Below, piece by piece: positions 5,911 to 15,117 of a DNA stretch of 15,448 bases. The notes beneath the pieces were generated by a model that saw only the letters and a program-made list of their open reading frames with translations, was not told where the DNA came from and did no database searches. The position numbers were made by a program, and so were the translations under genes. The DNA comes from Clostridia bacterium (GTDB lineage Bacteria; Bacillota; Clostridia; Christensenellales; UBA1242): NCBI GenBank assembly GCA_023228225.1, contig JALOBO010000033.1:1-15448 (forward strand), in the 5' to 3' direction. Position 1 is the first letter of the stretch. Each line of letters begins with the position of its first letter.

Positions 5911-6181
5911 TTTGCCGTGCATCATTATGTTGACAATACATTCTAAGTAGTACAAATAAATACAACTCCGTTAAAGTTTCCTTGTGGCACATCGCTAAAT
6001 CTGCTTAGTGCTGCTACCGTCAGGTCCTGACACGGTTCACAGCAAACGATTGCACAAGACCTTAACATCAACGATGTAAATTATTTGCCTGTTTTTAAAA
6101 TATACGGCCGAATAAAGCATTCAACCCCGCTATAGCGGATTTCGGGTACAGAGCACCGCTAACTCTCCATCTAGCACGGCA
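5911..6181 (-). ncRNA. ffs: Signal recognition particle RNA, large Firmicutes type
   Basis: Read on the minus strand, this is a 270 or so nt SRP RNA like Bacillus scRNA, the scaffold that binds Ffh and targets nascent membrane proteins. The ends pair: GCCGUGC (6180-6174) with GCACGGC (5920-5914). The 5' Alu domain is recognisable in GUUAGCGGUGCUCUGUACCC and CCGCUAUAGCGGGG. Domain IV is recognisable in GUGUCAGGACC and GGUAGCAGCAC, the asymmetric loop bound by the Ffh M domain. The apical tetraloop of domain IV is UGAC (6022-6019) rather than the GGAA of the classic examples. It has its own promoter, a terminator directly downstream, and no neighbour on the same strand. Confidence 0.95.
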
Positions 6182-8992: not shown

Positions 8993-11335
8993 ATGGCACT
9001 AAAAAACAGTATCAAACATGAGCAGAATTTGATGAATTCTGTGGACAATTATCTTACTGAGCATTTTGTTAATTCCAATTCATCACTAGTAATGGAAAAG
9101 AAAGTTAAAGGTACAGTTTACTATATAAAAGCAAACAGTGATGAGCATGAATCTAATGCAAGACCCGAAATTATTGAAGAAGGCTATAAACTGGATTCTT
9201 ATTTTACTGATGATCTCTTAGGAATTGTAAATTTGGGCGACTGGGGACAGTTTGATTTGACTAATGGAAAGCGTAATCCTATGACTGCCACAATGCCAGC
9301 ATATCGTCAGTATGATATGCATGTATATAGAATTAAAAAATATAAACTTGAAAAGAAACAAATAGCAATGGTTAGCGGAAATCATGATGAATCTGTATAT
9401 AAAAACTCCGGTATGGATGCAACAAAATTTGTTTATAATGAAATGCTTAGTGATGCTGAAAAAGGACCGTATAGAACAAAAGAACCACACTGTTTATATG
9501 CAAAAGATCGTTGTGTATTAACTTTAAAATTTGATGATCCCCTATGTCAAGGCAGAGAAATCCCATATCCAATAGAACTTTCACATGGAGATAAAACTCC
9601 GCGTGATATTGCACAAGCAGATACGGCTTTAAATCGTTCTACCGCTAGGGGTGTGCGTTTAAGTATAGTTGCTGATAGTCACATATCATACAGTGCTACA
9701 AGTAAAACATCTGTTATACAATCAAATGGTACAGTTGTTACAGATACTAGTATGACAGTAAACCCAGGTACTACGCAATCAAATGCTGACTGGGGTACTA
9801 GAATGGGTTTTGGTGCTTCAGGCGAAATTGCAAATACTGAACTTATTAGGTGTATGGTAATACCTGATGAAACAGGTAAAAAAAGTAAAGTCGTGCATGA
9901 TATTGTCAACGAACGCGATATTGTTAATGAAAAACTTGTTTTAATATATGAAACATTAAAGAAATATTTAAAAGAATTAGAGAATCGCAATTATAATTCT
10001 ACCGAGGAAATGAGTTTAACATATAAATTATTCTGCGAAAAAATAGTTCCTTTTGTATTTAAAGAAGCCGAATTAAAATACATTCCACAAGATTTATCTC
10101 AAAAAAATGGTATTTACAATGAAATTATTTTTGCACCTTGGTCTGGTTTAAATATTGGTCAAGATGACATTAGACTTGCAGAAAAAGGCTATGAAATTTT
10201 TAAAAAACCAATGAAAGGCAAAAAAAAGGATGAAGAAGAAAAAGAGGCAATAGAAGAATTAAAAGTTAAAAAAATTGAATATGTTTTAAAAAATACTCCT
10301 AGTATTGTTGATATCAAGAATAAAATTGAAACAATTAAAAAACTTGGACCAAATTGCAAAGTCCTTATAATTGGTGATTTTTTCCAAACTATTGATATTG
10401 CAATAATGAAAAATTTATTTTCTAATACTGATTACTGTAAAACTGCTTTTAGCAAAGGTGATCAAAACGAAAAAAATGCTTATATTTATCAAAACTTAAC
10501 CACTGCATTAGCAGATCTATTATTACCTATTAAAGACAATATACAAGGTTTTTATATAGGACTTGAAGAAGCACGTTCTTTGAGGGTTGATGGATATGAT
10601 TTAATGGCAATGATTGCAAGTAAATTAGGAATAAAATTATTTACAGCAGAAGAATATAATAAATTAACACAAAAAGACAAAAATGGTAGTGCCATTATTG
10701 ACAATAACATGGATAGACTAATGACACTAAATAATTATGGTGTAGTCAATTATAAAATGCGAGTACAAGGTACAAAAGAAGTAGATTTTGTAGGGGCTAG
10801 ATTTGGTTATTCAAAAACATTAGGAAAGCGTGGTAGTGCAAGAAATCAAATTGAGTATATACCCGAAAAGAAAGTTGCTGGTGCTCGTATTAATATAGTA
10901 GGAACTCGTTTGGGTGATGAATTTTTAGCCAAAGGTTATCAAACAATTTTAGATAAAGGAGAAACGGTTACTCGAAATATTGCCACAATTTCTTGCGGAA
11001 ATCTGAGTAATCCAAATTCTAATCTTAGATTGTATCGTGTAAAATTAAGACAACCGTCAAAAATAAAACAAAACGAATCAGCAATGTATAAAAATAATCA
11101 ACCGCATTTACAAACAGATTGTCTTGACTATCAAACAATACTTGCTGAACAAGCAATTGATAATACGCAACCAATTATATCTGATTTGATTGCACAAAGC
11201 CAAATTGAAACAAAAACAAAATTTGAAGAAAAGCAAAAAGATATAGTATCACAAGCAATTTGCAACGAAACACAAGATGTAATTAAAAAAGCAATGACAG
11301 AGGCAAAAACTGAAAACAAAGATGTTGCGGTATAA
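8993..11335 (+). CDS. Large protein with metallophosphoesterase motifs, 780 residues
   Basis: I do not recognise the full-length family. The N-terminal third carries the calcineurin-like metallophosphoesterase blocks in order: SDEHES (D50-x-H52), NLGDWGQFD (G82-D83), SGNHDES (G129-N-H-D132), SHGD (H198) and ADSH (H230). These are the residues that usually hold two metal ions, so a phosphodiester or phosphomonoester hydrolase is likely. Residues 300-440 are helical with a Lys/Glu-rich linker (408-420). From about 450, VLIIGDFFQTID begins a second alpha/beta region of unknown type that runs to about 720. The C-terminus (from about 735) is polar and helical. There is no signal peptide or membrane segment, so it is probably cytoplasmic. 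The start follows GAGGG at only 3 bases. It is co-transcribed with the zinc-ribbon gene and sits beside a 527-bp palindrome. Confidence 0.7.
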   Translation: MALKNSIKHEQNLMNSVDNYLTEHFVNSNSSLVMEKKVKGTVYYIKANSDEHESNARPEIIEEGYKLDSYFTDDLLGIVNLGDWGQFDLTNGKRNPMTATMPAYRQYDMHVYRIKKYKLEKKQIAMVSGNHDESVYKNSGMDATKFVYNEMLSDAEKGPYRTKEPHCLYAKDRCVLTLKFDDPLCQGREIPYPIELSHGDKTPRDIAQADTALNRSTARGVRLSIVADSHISYSATSKTSVIQSNGTVVTDTSMTVNPGTTQSNADWGTRMGFGASGEIANTELIRCMVIPDETGKKSKVVHDIVNERDIVNEKLVLIYETLKKYLKELENRNYNSTEEMSLTYKLFCEKIVPFVFKEAELKYIPQDLSQKNGIYNEIIFAPWSGLNIGQDDIRLAEKGYEIFKKPMKGKKKDEEEKEAIEELKVKKIEYVLKNTPSIVDIKNKIETIKKLGPNCKVLIIGDFFQTIDIAIMKNLFSNTDYCKTAFSKGDQNEKNAYIYQNLTTALADLLLPIKDNIQGFYIGLEEARSLRVDGYDLMAMIASKLGIKLFTAEEYNKLTQKDKNGSAIIDNNMDRLMTLNNYGVVNYKMRVQGTKEVDFVGARFGYSKTLGKRGSARNQIEYIPEKKVAGARINIVGTRLGDEFLAKGYQTILDKGETVTRNIATISCGNLSNPNSNLRLYRVKLRQPSKIKQNESAMYKNNQPHLQTDCLDYQTILAEQAIDNTQPIISDLIAQSQIETKTKFEEKQKDIVSQAICNETQDVIKKAMTEAKTENKDVAV

Positions 11336-11352: not shown

Positions 11353-11598
11353 ATGTTAGGCATTACAGAAAAAGATGATGTTATTACATGTGCTACTTGT
11401 GGTATGTTAATCTCCGATAATGGAGAGTATGACCAAAAATATTGCGTTAATTGTGGCAATCCACTTACATATGAAGCAATTCAAGAACATGAAGAATTTG
11501 TTCAAAATATAAAAAATGACACAGTAAAAGAAGTCGCTGATAAATTAAGCAAAAACTCAGAAATTAAAGAAATGGTACTAAAAATGCTAACCGAGTAA
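11353..11598 (+). CDS. Small zinc-ribbon protein, 81 residues
   Basis: A short protein with two Cys pairs, C13-x2-C16 and C31-x2-C34 (CATCG and CVNCG), the pattern of a zinc ribbon, followed by an acidic, helical C-terminus (residues 42-81). Its ATG has a good AAGGAG site and lies 17 bases after the phosphoesterase gene with no terminator between, so the two are one unit. Function is unknown. Zinc ribbons of this size often bind nucleic acid or a partner protein, and the partnership with the large phosphoesterase is inferred only from position. The stop codon is directly followed by the palindromic element. Confidence 0.75.
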   Translation: MLGITEKDDVITCATCGMLISDNGEYDQKYCVNCGNPLTYEAIQEHEEFVQNIKNDTVKEVADKLSKNSEIKEMVLKMLTE

Positions 11599-12125
11599 TT
11601 AAAAGGGGCACCAAAAACTAACGCTTGTACGCACAAAGTGCTTGCAAGCGTTTTTGGTTCCCCTCTTTAACCGCATTTTTGATAAAAATGCTAATCCCCT
11701 CCGTTTTTAAGTTGCATACAAAAAATCTTTAAGTCAGGGAAACCCCGACCCAGATTTTTTGTATGCCATTTGCTGTCGCAAATGAGTTAAAACTTTACCT
11801 GTGGTTTTTCTATTATAGTTAATCTAGAAAAGTGAAGTAGCAGAAAGTTAGGGATTTTTAAGCCGTTCTTCACTTTTTAAACCTATTATTGTAAACACAC
11901 AACAAATTTTTGCTGTACTTTTTAATAGAAAAGTTATTCATTTGCGGGAGCAAATGGCATTCTAAAAATGAATAACTGGGCTTTGCCTAGCTTGAATTTT
12001 TAGAGTGCAACTTATTAGCGGAGGGGATTAGCGGAATTAATTCCGCGGTTAAAGAGGGGAACTCAAACACGCTTGTTAGACTGCAAAGCAGTCGTACAAG
12101 AGTAAATGTTTGGTGCCCCTTTTAA
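11599..12125. other. 527-bp ornate imperfect palindrome (candidate structured RNA or non-autonomous mobile element)
   Basis: Non-coding. The outermost 17 bases are a perfect inverted repeat (11599-11615/12109-12125, TTAAAAGGGGCACCAAA). Further paired blocks run inward: 11657-11674/12045-12062 (18 of 18), 11690-11703/12019-12032 (14 of 14), 11709-11716/12006-12013 (8 of 8), 11806-11815/11923-11932 (10 of 10). A central hairpin pairs 11828-11837 with 11868-11877. Between the blocks each arm has local hairpins: 11621-11651, 11673-11691, 11714-11766 (15-bp perfect stem) and 11767-11784 on the left; 11939-11956, 11957-12008, 12031-12046 and 12072-12100 on the right. As RNA it would fold into one long rod with paired side arms. 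I do not recognise a known family, and the active strand is unresolved. The tyrS promoter begins 7 bases beyond it. Confidence 0.85.
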
Positions 12126-12132
12126 AAATCAG

Positions 12133-12162
12133 TTGCGCCGATTAATGTAATTGTGATATACT
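12133..12162 (+). promoter_or_regulatory. Promoter of the tyrS-recX-acpS operon
   Basis: TTGCGC (12133-12138), an 18-bp spacer and TATACT (12157-12162) with an extended -10 TGA. Predicted start near 12169, giving a leader of under 30 bases with no room for a T-box. Confidence 0.65.
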
Positions 12163-12195
12163 TTGCTATTAAATGTATATAGTAAGGAAATTGAT

Positions 12196-13392
12196 ATGAA
12201 TGCACTTATAGAACTTAAAAAAAGAGATTTGGTTAAACAAACAGTTTTTGAAGAAGATTTACAAAAATTATTAGGTGAAAAATCTGTAACTTTTTATATG
12301 GGTTTTGATGCTACTGGCGAAAGTTTAACAGTTGGGCATTTAGTGCCTGTTATGGTTGCGAGAAGACTTCAAAAAATGGGGCATCGTCCTATTATTTTGG
12401 TTGGTGGCGGTACAGCGCTTATTGGCGATCCATCAGGTAGAACTGATATGCGTAAAATGCAAACCATAGAGCAAATCATGATAAACGCTCAAAAAATTGG
12501 CGAGCAATTAAAAAATTATTTGAGTTTTGAAGGCAAGAATGCTGCTATTATGGTAAATAATGCAGATTGGCTTTTAAAACTTAATTATGTAGAATTTATT
12601 AGAGAAATTGGCTCTACTCTTTCGGTAAACCGTATGATAGCCACAGATTGCTTTAAAAAAAGACTAGAAACTGGATTATCTTTCTTAGAATTTAATTATA
12701 TGCCTATGCAAGCATATGATTTTTGGTACTTGTTTAAGCATTATGGCTGTCAGTTAGAAGTTGGTGGCGATGATCAATGGTCAAACATTTTGGCGGGCGA
12801 GGACTTAATTAGAAGAAAAGAAGATAAGCCAGCGTTTGCGTTTACTGTGCCACTGCTTTTAAATGCTGATGGCGTTAAAATGGGTAAAACCGCAAAAGGT
12901 GCATTATATTTATCCGAAGAAAAAACGAGTGCATATGATATTTATCAGTATTTTAGAAATGTTGAAGATAGCGATGTGGAAAATGTGTTTAAAATGCTTA
13001 CCGAAGTTGATTTAGAAACTATTAAAGAACTTGTAAAGTATAAAGATGAACGCATAAATCATGCAAAAGAAATTTTGGCATACAAAATTGTTGCCCTTGT
13101 GCGTGGCGAGGCGGAAGCAAATAAAGCACAAATGCAGGCAAGAGCCGCTTTTTCCGACAATGCCGACAATATGGAAGTAGTTAAAATAGATAAAAATATA
13201 CGAAATATTATAGATATTTTACTTACACTTAAATTAGTACCGAGTAAGAGTGAAGCACGCAGACTTATTGAAGGTGGCGGAGTAAAAGTTGATGATGAAA
13301 ACATCAATTCAATCGATTATGCTATTCCCGTAAATAAAAAAGAATTTGTAATTCATAAAGGTAAAAAAGCACATATTAAGGTTGCTTTTTAG
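12196..13392 (+). CDS. tyrS: Tyrosyl-tRNA synthetase
   Basis: A 398-residue class I synthetase that charges tRNA-Tyr. The nucleotide-binding HIGH-type motif appears as LTVGHLVP (44-51), and GDPSGRTDMR (77-86) and VGGDDQWSNIL (189-199) line the tyrosine and adenylate site. The KMSKS-type loop is KMGKT (228-232). The C-terminus is an S4 RNA-binding domain (PSKSEARRLIEGGGVKVDDE). The start is the ATG at 12196, 7 bases after AAGGAAA. An upstream in-frame ATG at 12163 overlaps the promoter and has no ribosome binding site, so I reject it. Many Firmicutes control tyrS with a T-box leader; none is present here. It leads an operon with recX 22 bases downstream. Confidence 0.96.
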   Translation: MNALIELKKRDLVKQTVFEEDLQKLLGEKSVTFYMGFDATGESLTVGHLVPVMVARRLQKMGHRPIILVGGGTALIGDPSGRTDMRKMQTIEQIMINAQKIGEQLKNYLSFEGKNAAIMVNNADWLLKLNYVEFIREIGSTLSVNRMIATDCFKKRLETGLSFLEFNYMPMQAYDFWYLFKHYGCQLEVGGDDQWSNILAGEDLIRRKEDKPAFAFTVPLLLNADGVKMGKTAKGALYLSEEKTSAYDIYQYFRNVEDSDVENVFKMLTEVDLETIKELVKYKDERINHAKEILAYKIVALVRGEAEANKAQMQARAAFSDNADNMEVVKIDKNIRNIIDILLTLKLVPSKSEARRLIEGGGVKVDDENINSIDYAIPVNKKEFVIHKGKKAHIKVAF

Positions 13393-14534: not shown

Positions 14535-14783
14535 ATGAGTAATTTTTTAAATAAACTTAATGTAGGCTTAAATAAGCAAATTTCAAAATTTACCGCAAAT
14601 AAATCTATCAGTATTACAGATAGCGTGCAGAACATTTATTTTAAAAAGAAGCATACAATGTTTTATGCGGAGGATAATTATAAAAAAATTTATCTGCGCC
14701 CACCCGAATTCGCAGACCAACAATATAACGATCTAATTATGTACGAAAAACTTTTATCGGAGAGTGAGAAATTTGATAATTAA
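14535..14783 (+). CDS. Unrecognised 82-residue protein in the antitoxin position before mazF
   Basis: A good AGGAG lies 9 bases before the ATG. Residues 1-30 are basic and polar ([19 protein letters not shown]); the middle is Lys/Tyr-rich ([20 protein letters not shown]); residues 55-82 are acidic and probably helical, ending [10 protein letters not shown]. That layout, a basic N-terminal half and an acidic C-terminal tail, is what an antitoxin that binds DNA and then its toxin looks like. However, I see neither a ribbon-helix-helix nor an AbrB/MazE-type sequence. Its 3' end overlaps the MazF start by 11 bases. An antitoxin role is therefore inferred from position and coupling only. Confidence 0.65.
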
Positions 14784-15117
14784 ACGTGGCGAACTGTATT
14801 ATGCAGATCTTAGCCCTGTAATAGGAAGTGAACAAGGCGGAATCCGCCCAGTATTAATATTGCAAAATGATGTGGGTAATAAATATAGTCCCACCATTAT
14901 TGCGGCTGCGGTTACAAGCCAAATAAATAAGGCTAAATTGCCAACTCATATAGAAATTAGCGCAAAAGAATATGGACTTCCAAAAGATTCTGTGATATTA
15001 TTAGAACAAATTAGAACAATTGATAAAAGGCGATTGCAAGAAAAAATTGGCGTGCTTGATAGTCATATAATGAACCAAGTAAATGAAGCACTATTAATAA
15101 GTTTAGGGTTTATATAA
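14773..15117 (+). CDS. mazF: MazF/PemK-family endoribonuclease toxin
   Basis: A 114-residue protein very close to Bacillus NdoA (EndoA), a sequence-specific mRNA interferase. It shows the family run [20 protein letters not shown] (near the N-terminus) with RPVLILQND, the catalytic-site segment IAAAVTSQ followed by KLPTH, and the conserved [16 protein letters not shown]. The start I choose is TTG at 14773, which gives [10 protein letters not shown], matches the NdoA N-terminus, and lies 8 bases after GGAGAG. The GTG at 14764 is too close to that site to be used. It overlaps the upstream gene by 11 bases, typical toxin-antitoxin coupling. No clear terminator follows. Confidence 0.93.

Follow-up and report, generated by a model that had tools for sequence, protein, structure and literature searches.

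REPINs are doublets of REP sequences that form a hairpin and are moved by RAYT transposases, and GTAG and CGTC, named as families in the title of one paper (PMC3733652), are tags at the foot of the REP palindrome. The cited sections of a REPIN report describe inverted doublets with compensatory changes and two folds, a long hairpin and a clover, with a less conserved spacer between the units, one short hairpin per unit and, in the example given, invariant ends of 16 bp that are 71 bp apart (PMC3116915). Bacterial MITEs (Correia/NEMIS, ERIC, RUP, RPE, CIR) are put at about 100-200 bp in the sections cited, with terminal inverted repeats, no transposase, intergenic positions and stable stem-loops, and in CIR a linker connects two arms (PMC2229807). 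The bcr repeats of the Bacillus cereus group are outlined as intergenic, bcr1-3 being MITE-like and bcr10 and bcr18 having conserved secondary structure (PMC3446304). The large ornate RNAs OLE, GOLLD, and ROOL pair elaborately, and the section cited does not present an overall inverted symmetry as typical of them (PMC12286853). These are the nearest known kinds to the element studied here, and the cited sections of this literature contain no description of a branched palindrome of about 0.5 kb.

In this study, we analyzed a 527-bp palindrome in a stretch of 15,448 nucleotides (the window) from an uncultured member of the Clostridia. As in REPINs, two inverted hairpin-forming units with compensatory changes flank a less conserved spacer, and both a long hairpin and a clover can be drawn (PMC3116915). 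It differs from them in its four hairpins per unit, its 527 bp and its other end sequences, and no RAYT was seen within the window. GTAG/CTAC occurs once, at 11837 in the centre, and CGTC/GACG occurs nowhere in 11599-12125; judged by these missing end tags, the element is not classed as a REPIN. With bacterial MITEs it shares terminal inverted repeats (here 17 bp, perfect), the lack of a transposase, an intergenic position and stable stem-loops, and with CIR the two arms joined by a linker, whereas its length lies outside the MITE range (PMC2229807). The only direct flanking repeat is TTAA on both sides, which is self-complementary and so uninformative on target-site duplication. The bcr repeats resemble the element by description only, being intergenic, some MITE-like and some structured (PMC3446304), and OLE, GOLLD, and ROOL resemble it in size class and elaborate pairing (PMC12286853), although no Rfam match was obtained here.

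A 527-bp palindrome between two genes

An earlier note on this DNA had described a palindrome spanning 11599-12125 around one centre. Comparison of the window with itself by blastn on the minus strand returned exactly these ends in one self-match (560 columns, 64% identity, 179 bits), and the next-best palindrome of the window reached 58 bits. The score of the region against its own reverse complement was 150, and 500 dinucleotide shuffles gave a mean of 21.1 (sd 4.5) and a maximum of 40. These two results rule out a chance palindrome, and the 527-bp palindrome is confirmed as real. An assembly artefact in the form of a recent inverted chimera was also rejected, by inference from the divergence of the arms: 58 of 194 core columns are not the same, 9 of these because of gaps. 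The self-blast score calls for caution when taken alone, as two AT-rich stretches in the sampled genomes score 131 and 128 bits; these stretches fold at z -0.7 (L121) and -1.5 (L143), and the window palindrome is of another order.

The palindrome is intergenic. Its first base directly follows a stop codon, and its last base lies 70 bp 5' of the tyrS ATG (12196). No ORF of at least 60 aa overlapping 11599-12125 was found, which agrees with the non-coding status given in the note, and G+C is 37% in the palindrome and 31% in the window. The preceding gene encodes an 81-aa zinc-ribbon protein, for which only two relatives besides itself were found in the protein collection (69-73% identity, 82 aa, on short ENA contigs). 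Since both relatives end at the same place as the 81-aa ORF or one residue later, the palindrome does not shorten this protein. The longest contig of one of them is 2,396 bp, the same as for a TyrRS relative of 74% identity, which suggests that the gene pair of zinc-ribbon ORF and tyrS is kept in that relative.

The neighboring genes are bacterial housekeeping genes, for thioredoxin reductase, uracil-DNA glycosylase, pseudouridine synthase, tyrS, recX, and acpS. The closest TyrRS relatives in genome contigs reached 59-60% at best and were scattered over Christensenellales-type lineages; closer ones in the protein collection (91% and 74%) lay on short metagenome contigs, of 2,420 and 2,396 bp respectively. 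The TyrRS of the window formed a long branch, with an unsure place near L015 and L037, both in one family.

Two diverged inverted units with the same four hairpins

One unit of about 189 nt is present twice, inverted and diverged, as the two arms (left 189 nt, right 190 nt), with 136 of 194 aligned columns identical. Perfect blocks common to both arms measure 17, 18, 14, 9, 12, and 9 bp, together with 8 bp within H1; in the left arm the six blocks lie at 11599-11615, 11657-11674, 11690-11703, 11708-11716, 11763-11774, and 11777-11785. The lengths of 17, 18, 14, 8, 10, and 10 bp listed earlier were thus essentially right, and the count of at least eight local hairpins held as well, with eight found, four per arm. 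The features are listed below with strand and, where given, basis.

11599..12125, no strand assigned: whole palindromic element (self-complement match, shuffle score, fold z)
11599..11787, plus: left unit, inward orientation; four hairpins when folded alone
11936..12125, minus: right unit, inward orientation; second copy of the left unit, inverted and diverged, with the same four hairpins
11599..11615, plus: trunk T1 left, perfect terminal inverted repeat of 17 bp with TTAA as its first bases (arm identity)
12109..12125, minus: trunk T1 right, terminal inverted repeat, ends TTAA (arm identity)
11657..11674, plus: trunk T2 left, 18 bp; local pairing with T1 also possible (hairpin H0)
12045..12062, minus: trunk T2 right
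11690..11703, plus: trunk T3 left, 14 bp; has no partner when its arm folds locally
12019..12032, minus: trunk T3 right
11708..11716, plus: trunk T4 left, 9 bp
12006..12014, minus: trunk T4 right
11620..11652, plus: side hairpin H1 left (listed inverted repeat)
12072..12100, minus: side hairpin H1 right, with compensatory changes in 3 of the 4 pairs of the tip stem (by-eye stem alignment)
11673..11691, plus: side hairpin H2 left (arm fold, by-eye stem alignment)
12031..12046, minus: side hairpin H2 right, with compensatory changes relative to the left in 4 of 6 pairs (arm fold, by-eye stem alignment)
11714..11766, plus: side hairpin H3 left (arm fold, by-eye stem alignment)
11957..12008, minus: side hairpin H3 right, with compensatory changes in 5 of 19 pairs and 1 pair turned into G-T (arm fold, by-eye stem alignment)
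11767..11784, plus: hairpin H4 left, also trunk T5/T6 (11763-11785)
11939..11956, minus: hairpin H4 right, also trunk T5/T6 (11938-11960)
11827..11878, no strand assigned: central hairpin, arms 11827-11837 and 11868-11878 (seen in whole-region and centre folds)
11353..11598, plus: neighboring 81-aa zinc-ribbon ORF, stop codon abuts the palindrome, C-terminus intact
12196..13392, plus: neighboring tyrS, tyrosine--tRNA ligase (TIGR00234, start codon read)

Folding as a tree or a clover

The whole region folded at -240.5 kcal/mol (z -16.9) on the plus strand and at -233.9 kcal/mol (z -19.1) on the minus strand, and as single-stranded DNA it gave the same tree (z -18.4). All six identical blocks were paired in the free minimum-energy fold, and forcing them cost 0.1 kcal/mol (-239.7 vs -239.8). 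H1, H2, and H3 stood between the trunk blocks as side branches, most fully in the single-stranded DNA fold. Folded alone, the left arm (11599-11790) reached -73.7 kcal/mol (z -9.0) and the right arm (11934-12125) -62.3 kcal/mol (z -7.7), each with four hairpins on a common plan: a long compound hairpin H0/H1, H2, an unpaired stretch, H3, and H4. The central 152 nt folded no better than shuffles (z -0.23), and its halves were weakly similar by inversion (17 vs 10.1, a score reached by 16 of 2000 shuffles). A clover form, in which T1 and T2 pair within one arm (H0), was calculated at about -173 kcal/mol (arms -149.3, centre -23.5). In these models, the clover form can compete with the arm-to-arm tree.

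The outward strands folded more stably than the inward ones (-80.4 vs -73.7 and -75.6 vs -62.3 kcal/mol) and contained 4 and 6 G-U pairs against 1 and 2. This difference in energy follows from composition, because permuted arms showed the same strand gap (means -51.3 vs -43.0 and -53.3 vs -40.6). A strand-specific RNA was therefore not counted on the strength of the G-U pairs.

Divergence between the arms

The covariation between the two arms of this one element was the sole substitute for covariation among homologues. Letters were shuffled among the 58 varying columns (of 194) within one arm, for both arms and both orientations. The permuted arms folded at about -41 to -53 kcal/mol, and the stability of the real arm was reached in 0 of 500 permutations in each of the four tests. 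Arm divergence respects the hairpins. RNAalifold on the two arms gave 51 pairs, 7 of which had both sides changed with the pair kept. A structural stem alignment made by eye covered 44 pairs: 31 unchanged, 1 with a one-sided change, and 12 with two-sided changes. This table is biased, since its stems were chosen as paired in both arms, unalignable stems were omitted and the H0-middle row was dropped; its 0 of 44 broken pairs is no test of breakage, which is provided by the permutation test.

The identity between the arms was clumped, with a run score of 1360 against 749 (sd 108) in permuted data, and 12 of 20000 permutations reached it. An identical trunk with independently drifting branches would be expected from a tree whose trunk is held by pairing between the arms and whose branches each pair with themselves. 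The same pattern would also be expected from two separate copies with conserved protein-binding joints.

Searches for families and relatives

The Rfam search that the note had proposed was run, and at gathering level no family matched in the palindrome; the only match of the window was a Bacterial large SRP RNA at 5915-6179 on the minus strand (166.6 bits). At E<=10, the region 11560-12200 gave 15 sub-threshold matches, the best being 23.5 bits to a microRNA model with a cut-off of 100. OLE, GOLLD, and ROOL are presumably among the models of this library. A known RNA family was rejected on the absence of an Rfam model at threshold, and a T-box or other tyrS leader likewise on the absence of an Rfam match. 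No relative of the palindrome was found in 72,556 plasmid records or in 50,697 phage records, where one 46-base match had E 0.6. These searches bear out the description of the element as of unrecognised type. Pattern searches of IMG/VR gave 1, 4, 0, and 0 matches and no convincing relative: one match (L001) covered one end only, with no partner within the 1.2 kb read, and around the others (L093-L096) the element was not seen in flanks read for up to 350 bases.

The DNA of the element matched 17 of 20 genomes at E<=1 (best 0.014 over 24 bases) and 10 of 297 genomes at E<=0.01 (best 5.8e-4). The best of the 297, G061, matched at L097:1501-1522 in 22 of 22 bases of the right-arm T3/H2 region, inside a GC-rich repeat. 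This match is probably due to chance, about 0.2 such being expected over the 297 genomes, and kinship is possible. A covariance model built from both units (CM R1) matched in 1 of 396 genomes (E 0.008), in 6 of 197 at E<=1 (best 0.0026), and in 0 of 4, 0 of 1, and 0 of 5, these sets overlapping. The T2 pattern with one mismatch allowed occurred in 18 of 386 genomes, never exactly, and the reversed control in 7 genomes. No trusted relative or second copy was found in these genomes, which include no close kin, and for that reason the silence of the searches weighs little.

The palindrome scan covered 106 fetched loci and the window, and then 55 more loci. A 219-bp palindrome (L017:14954-15172, 109 bits) lay beside an ORF start in G308, a genome without a CM R1 match, and the palindrome in L051 consisted of GC-rich repeats.

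Inverted doublets in a related genome

In G307, a genome of Christensenellales type, a 440-bp palindrome (L049:8536-8975) likewise lies upstream of tyrS. It consists of two inverted copies of a repeat of about 214 bp, which has 84 matches in G307, and inverted repeat pairs were found at three further loci of that genome where such copies cluster (L108, L111/L113, and L115). The likeness to the window element is that of an intergenic palindrome upstream of tyrS, in a genome of a related order. Its sequence is unrelated, as CM R1 finds nothing in G307, its fold (z -7.4) is far weaker, and each of its halves has its own terminal repeats of about 25 bp at both ends, in which the window element differs. 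From this locus it is clear that a palindrome of this type can arise from a mobile repeat in such a position, and that doublets form repeatedly.

The window element does not fit a pairing by chance of two inverted copies of an ordinary MITE, the case seen in L049, as the inner ends of its halves lack a terminal repeat. With up to 2 mismatches, AAAGGGGCACCAAA occurred only at 11602, 11653 (minus), and 12109 (minus), and not near the centre.

Discussion

The element is an inverted doublet with a conserved trunk, side hairpins kept by compensated changes, and outer ends exactly at TTAA. The earlier note had its anatomy right, and its interpretation, in which the region might be a new family in the class of large ornate RNAs or a palindromic element, is partly supported. 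As the best explanation, we tentatively propose a non-autonomous mobile element that would work like a REPIN in a larger, branched form; we regard this as a real possibility with somewhat less than an even chance. Two inverted hairpin-bearing end units joined by a centre of about 150 bp would form a REPIN- or MITE-doublet-like element, and the whole doublet would be copied as one piece by an enzyme supplied in trans. A single strand can take either of two shapes, one long branched hairpin in which side hairpins stand on the trunk T1-T6, or two separate hairpin clusters, and this folded strand may be the substrate of the enzyme. Such an element would move, and other copies would exist.

Several features argue for the mobile element. 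The inverted-doublet layout keeps its sequence most strictly at the outer ends, where arm similarity begins exactly and is perfect over 17 bp, and arm identity is clumped while the side hairpins are held despite divergence. The element begins directly after a stop codon and leaves the protein at its full length. The element is also little gene-like, with no ORF, no promoter excess and no strand preference beyond composition, and L049 and the three other loci with inverted pairs provide a precedent in a relative. REPINs themselves, in the sections cited, are inverted doublets with compensatory changes and two folds (PMC3116915). Against the mobile element stand the lack of a relative in the genomes searched, none of them close kin, the lack of a target-site duplication other than the uninformative TTAA, the 527 bp against about 100-200 bp for MITEs, the absence of REP tetranucleotides from the ends and the absence of a transposase in the 15.4-kb window.

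The main rival, and a serious one, is a structured RNA, which we consider less likely than the mobile element. It could be one RNA of about 0.5 kb with the branched-tree fold, perhaps serving as the 3' UTR of the operon ending at 11598, or a divergent pair of RNAs of about 190 nt, each starting from the centre and stopping at one of the GGTGCCCCTTTTAA ends. Folding far beyond shuffles in the whole region and in each arm, the two-sided changes between the arms, the more stable outward strands with more G-U pairs, and a GC-rich stem followed by TTTT at both outer ends are all consistent with it. However, the strand difference recurs in permuted arms and so comes from composition, and promoter-like sites number 1 against 3.2 expected, that one being misplaced to drive the arms outward as a pair. 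No terminator was called at the outer ends under a loop limit of 8, which excludes H0; there is no Rfam family, and single-stranded DNA folds into the same tree. Nothing favours RNA specifically, because promoter-like sites are not enriched and permuted arms reproduce the strand difference, and function as RNA and function as DNA are indistinguishable here. A further reading, which we think unlikely, is a new class of ornate branched nucleic acid: a palindromic tree of 0.5 kb, with a trunk kept by arm-arm pairing and paired side branches that would each change on their own while selection preserves their folding. Such a tree would serve as an RNA scaffold or a single-stranded transposition intermediate.

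An old inverted duplication without present function is improbable in our estimate. Template switching during replication, known as quasipalindrome correction, keeps short local hairpins perfect and acts more readily on these than on arms of 500 bp, and in such a duplication it could mimic compensatory change. This preference, the faint inverted similarity left in the centre halves, and the palindromes of 400-900 bp made by inverted doublets of ordinary repeats in a relative all fit a duplication. It leaves unexplained why T3 (14/14, unpaired in its arm) and the ends (17/17) are intact while their neighbors differ, and why a decaying palindrome began with four hairpins per arm. We give a still smaller chance to a DNA site that acts locally, for example by blocking transcription from both directions, as a site of replication or integration, or as what was the hairpin end of a linear replicon that invaded and became fused. 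The perfect outer repeats, the cruciform capacity (z -18.4 as single-stranded DNA) and the position between same-strand genes would suit such a site, as would the outline, in which a multi-branched palindrome resembles viral inverted terminal repeats. However, no adjoining gene was assigned to a replication, recombination or phage family, save for a distant exonuclease-like match in a 780-aa ORF; the palindrome lies inside a longer contig (66,870 bp) and not at its end, and no relative was found in the phage and plasmid records.

The palindrome looks like a folded genetic element of an uncatalogued kind. Should it be a mobile element, the REPIN concept, in which an inverted hairpin doublet is what replicates, would extend to a far larger form with many branches, and to uncultured Clostridia, from which the literature surveyed describes no examples. 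Should it be an RNA, its inverted symmetry would set it apart from the three classes of large ornate RNA known so far. Long palindromes are reportedly unstable in cells, as in E. coli work on SbcCD, and the upkeep of a 527-bp palindrome is of interest given this instability.

Other features of the window

The 780-aa ORF (8993-11335) had itself as sole relative among 7994 scored candidates in the protein collection, and no Pfam or NCBIfam family was found for it. Against PHROG, residues 77-274 weakly matched a DNA repair exonuclease (E 2.4e-8), and one match of 50 residues was obtained in genome G281 (E 7e-5). A 41-bp near-perfect palindrome (97.6%) at 668-708 forms a terminator-like hairpin between genes. 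At 14535-15117, a PemK/MazF-like toxin ORF has a start that overlaps the end of an 82-aa ORF, which has no Pfam match and is a candidate antitoxin.
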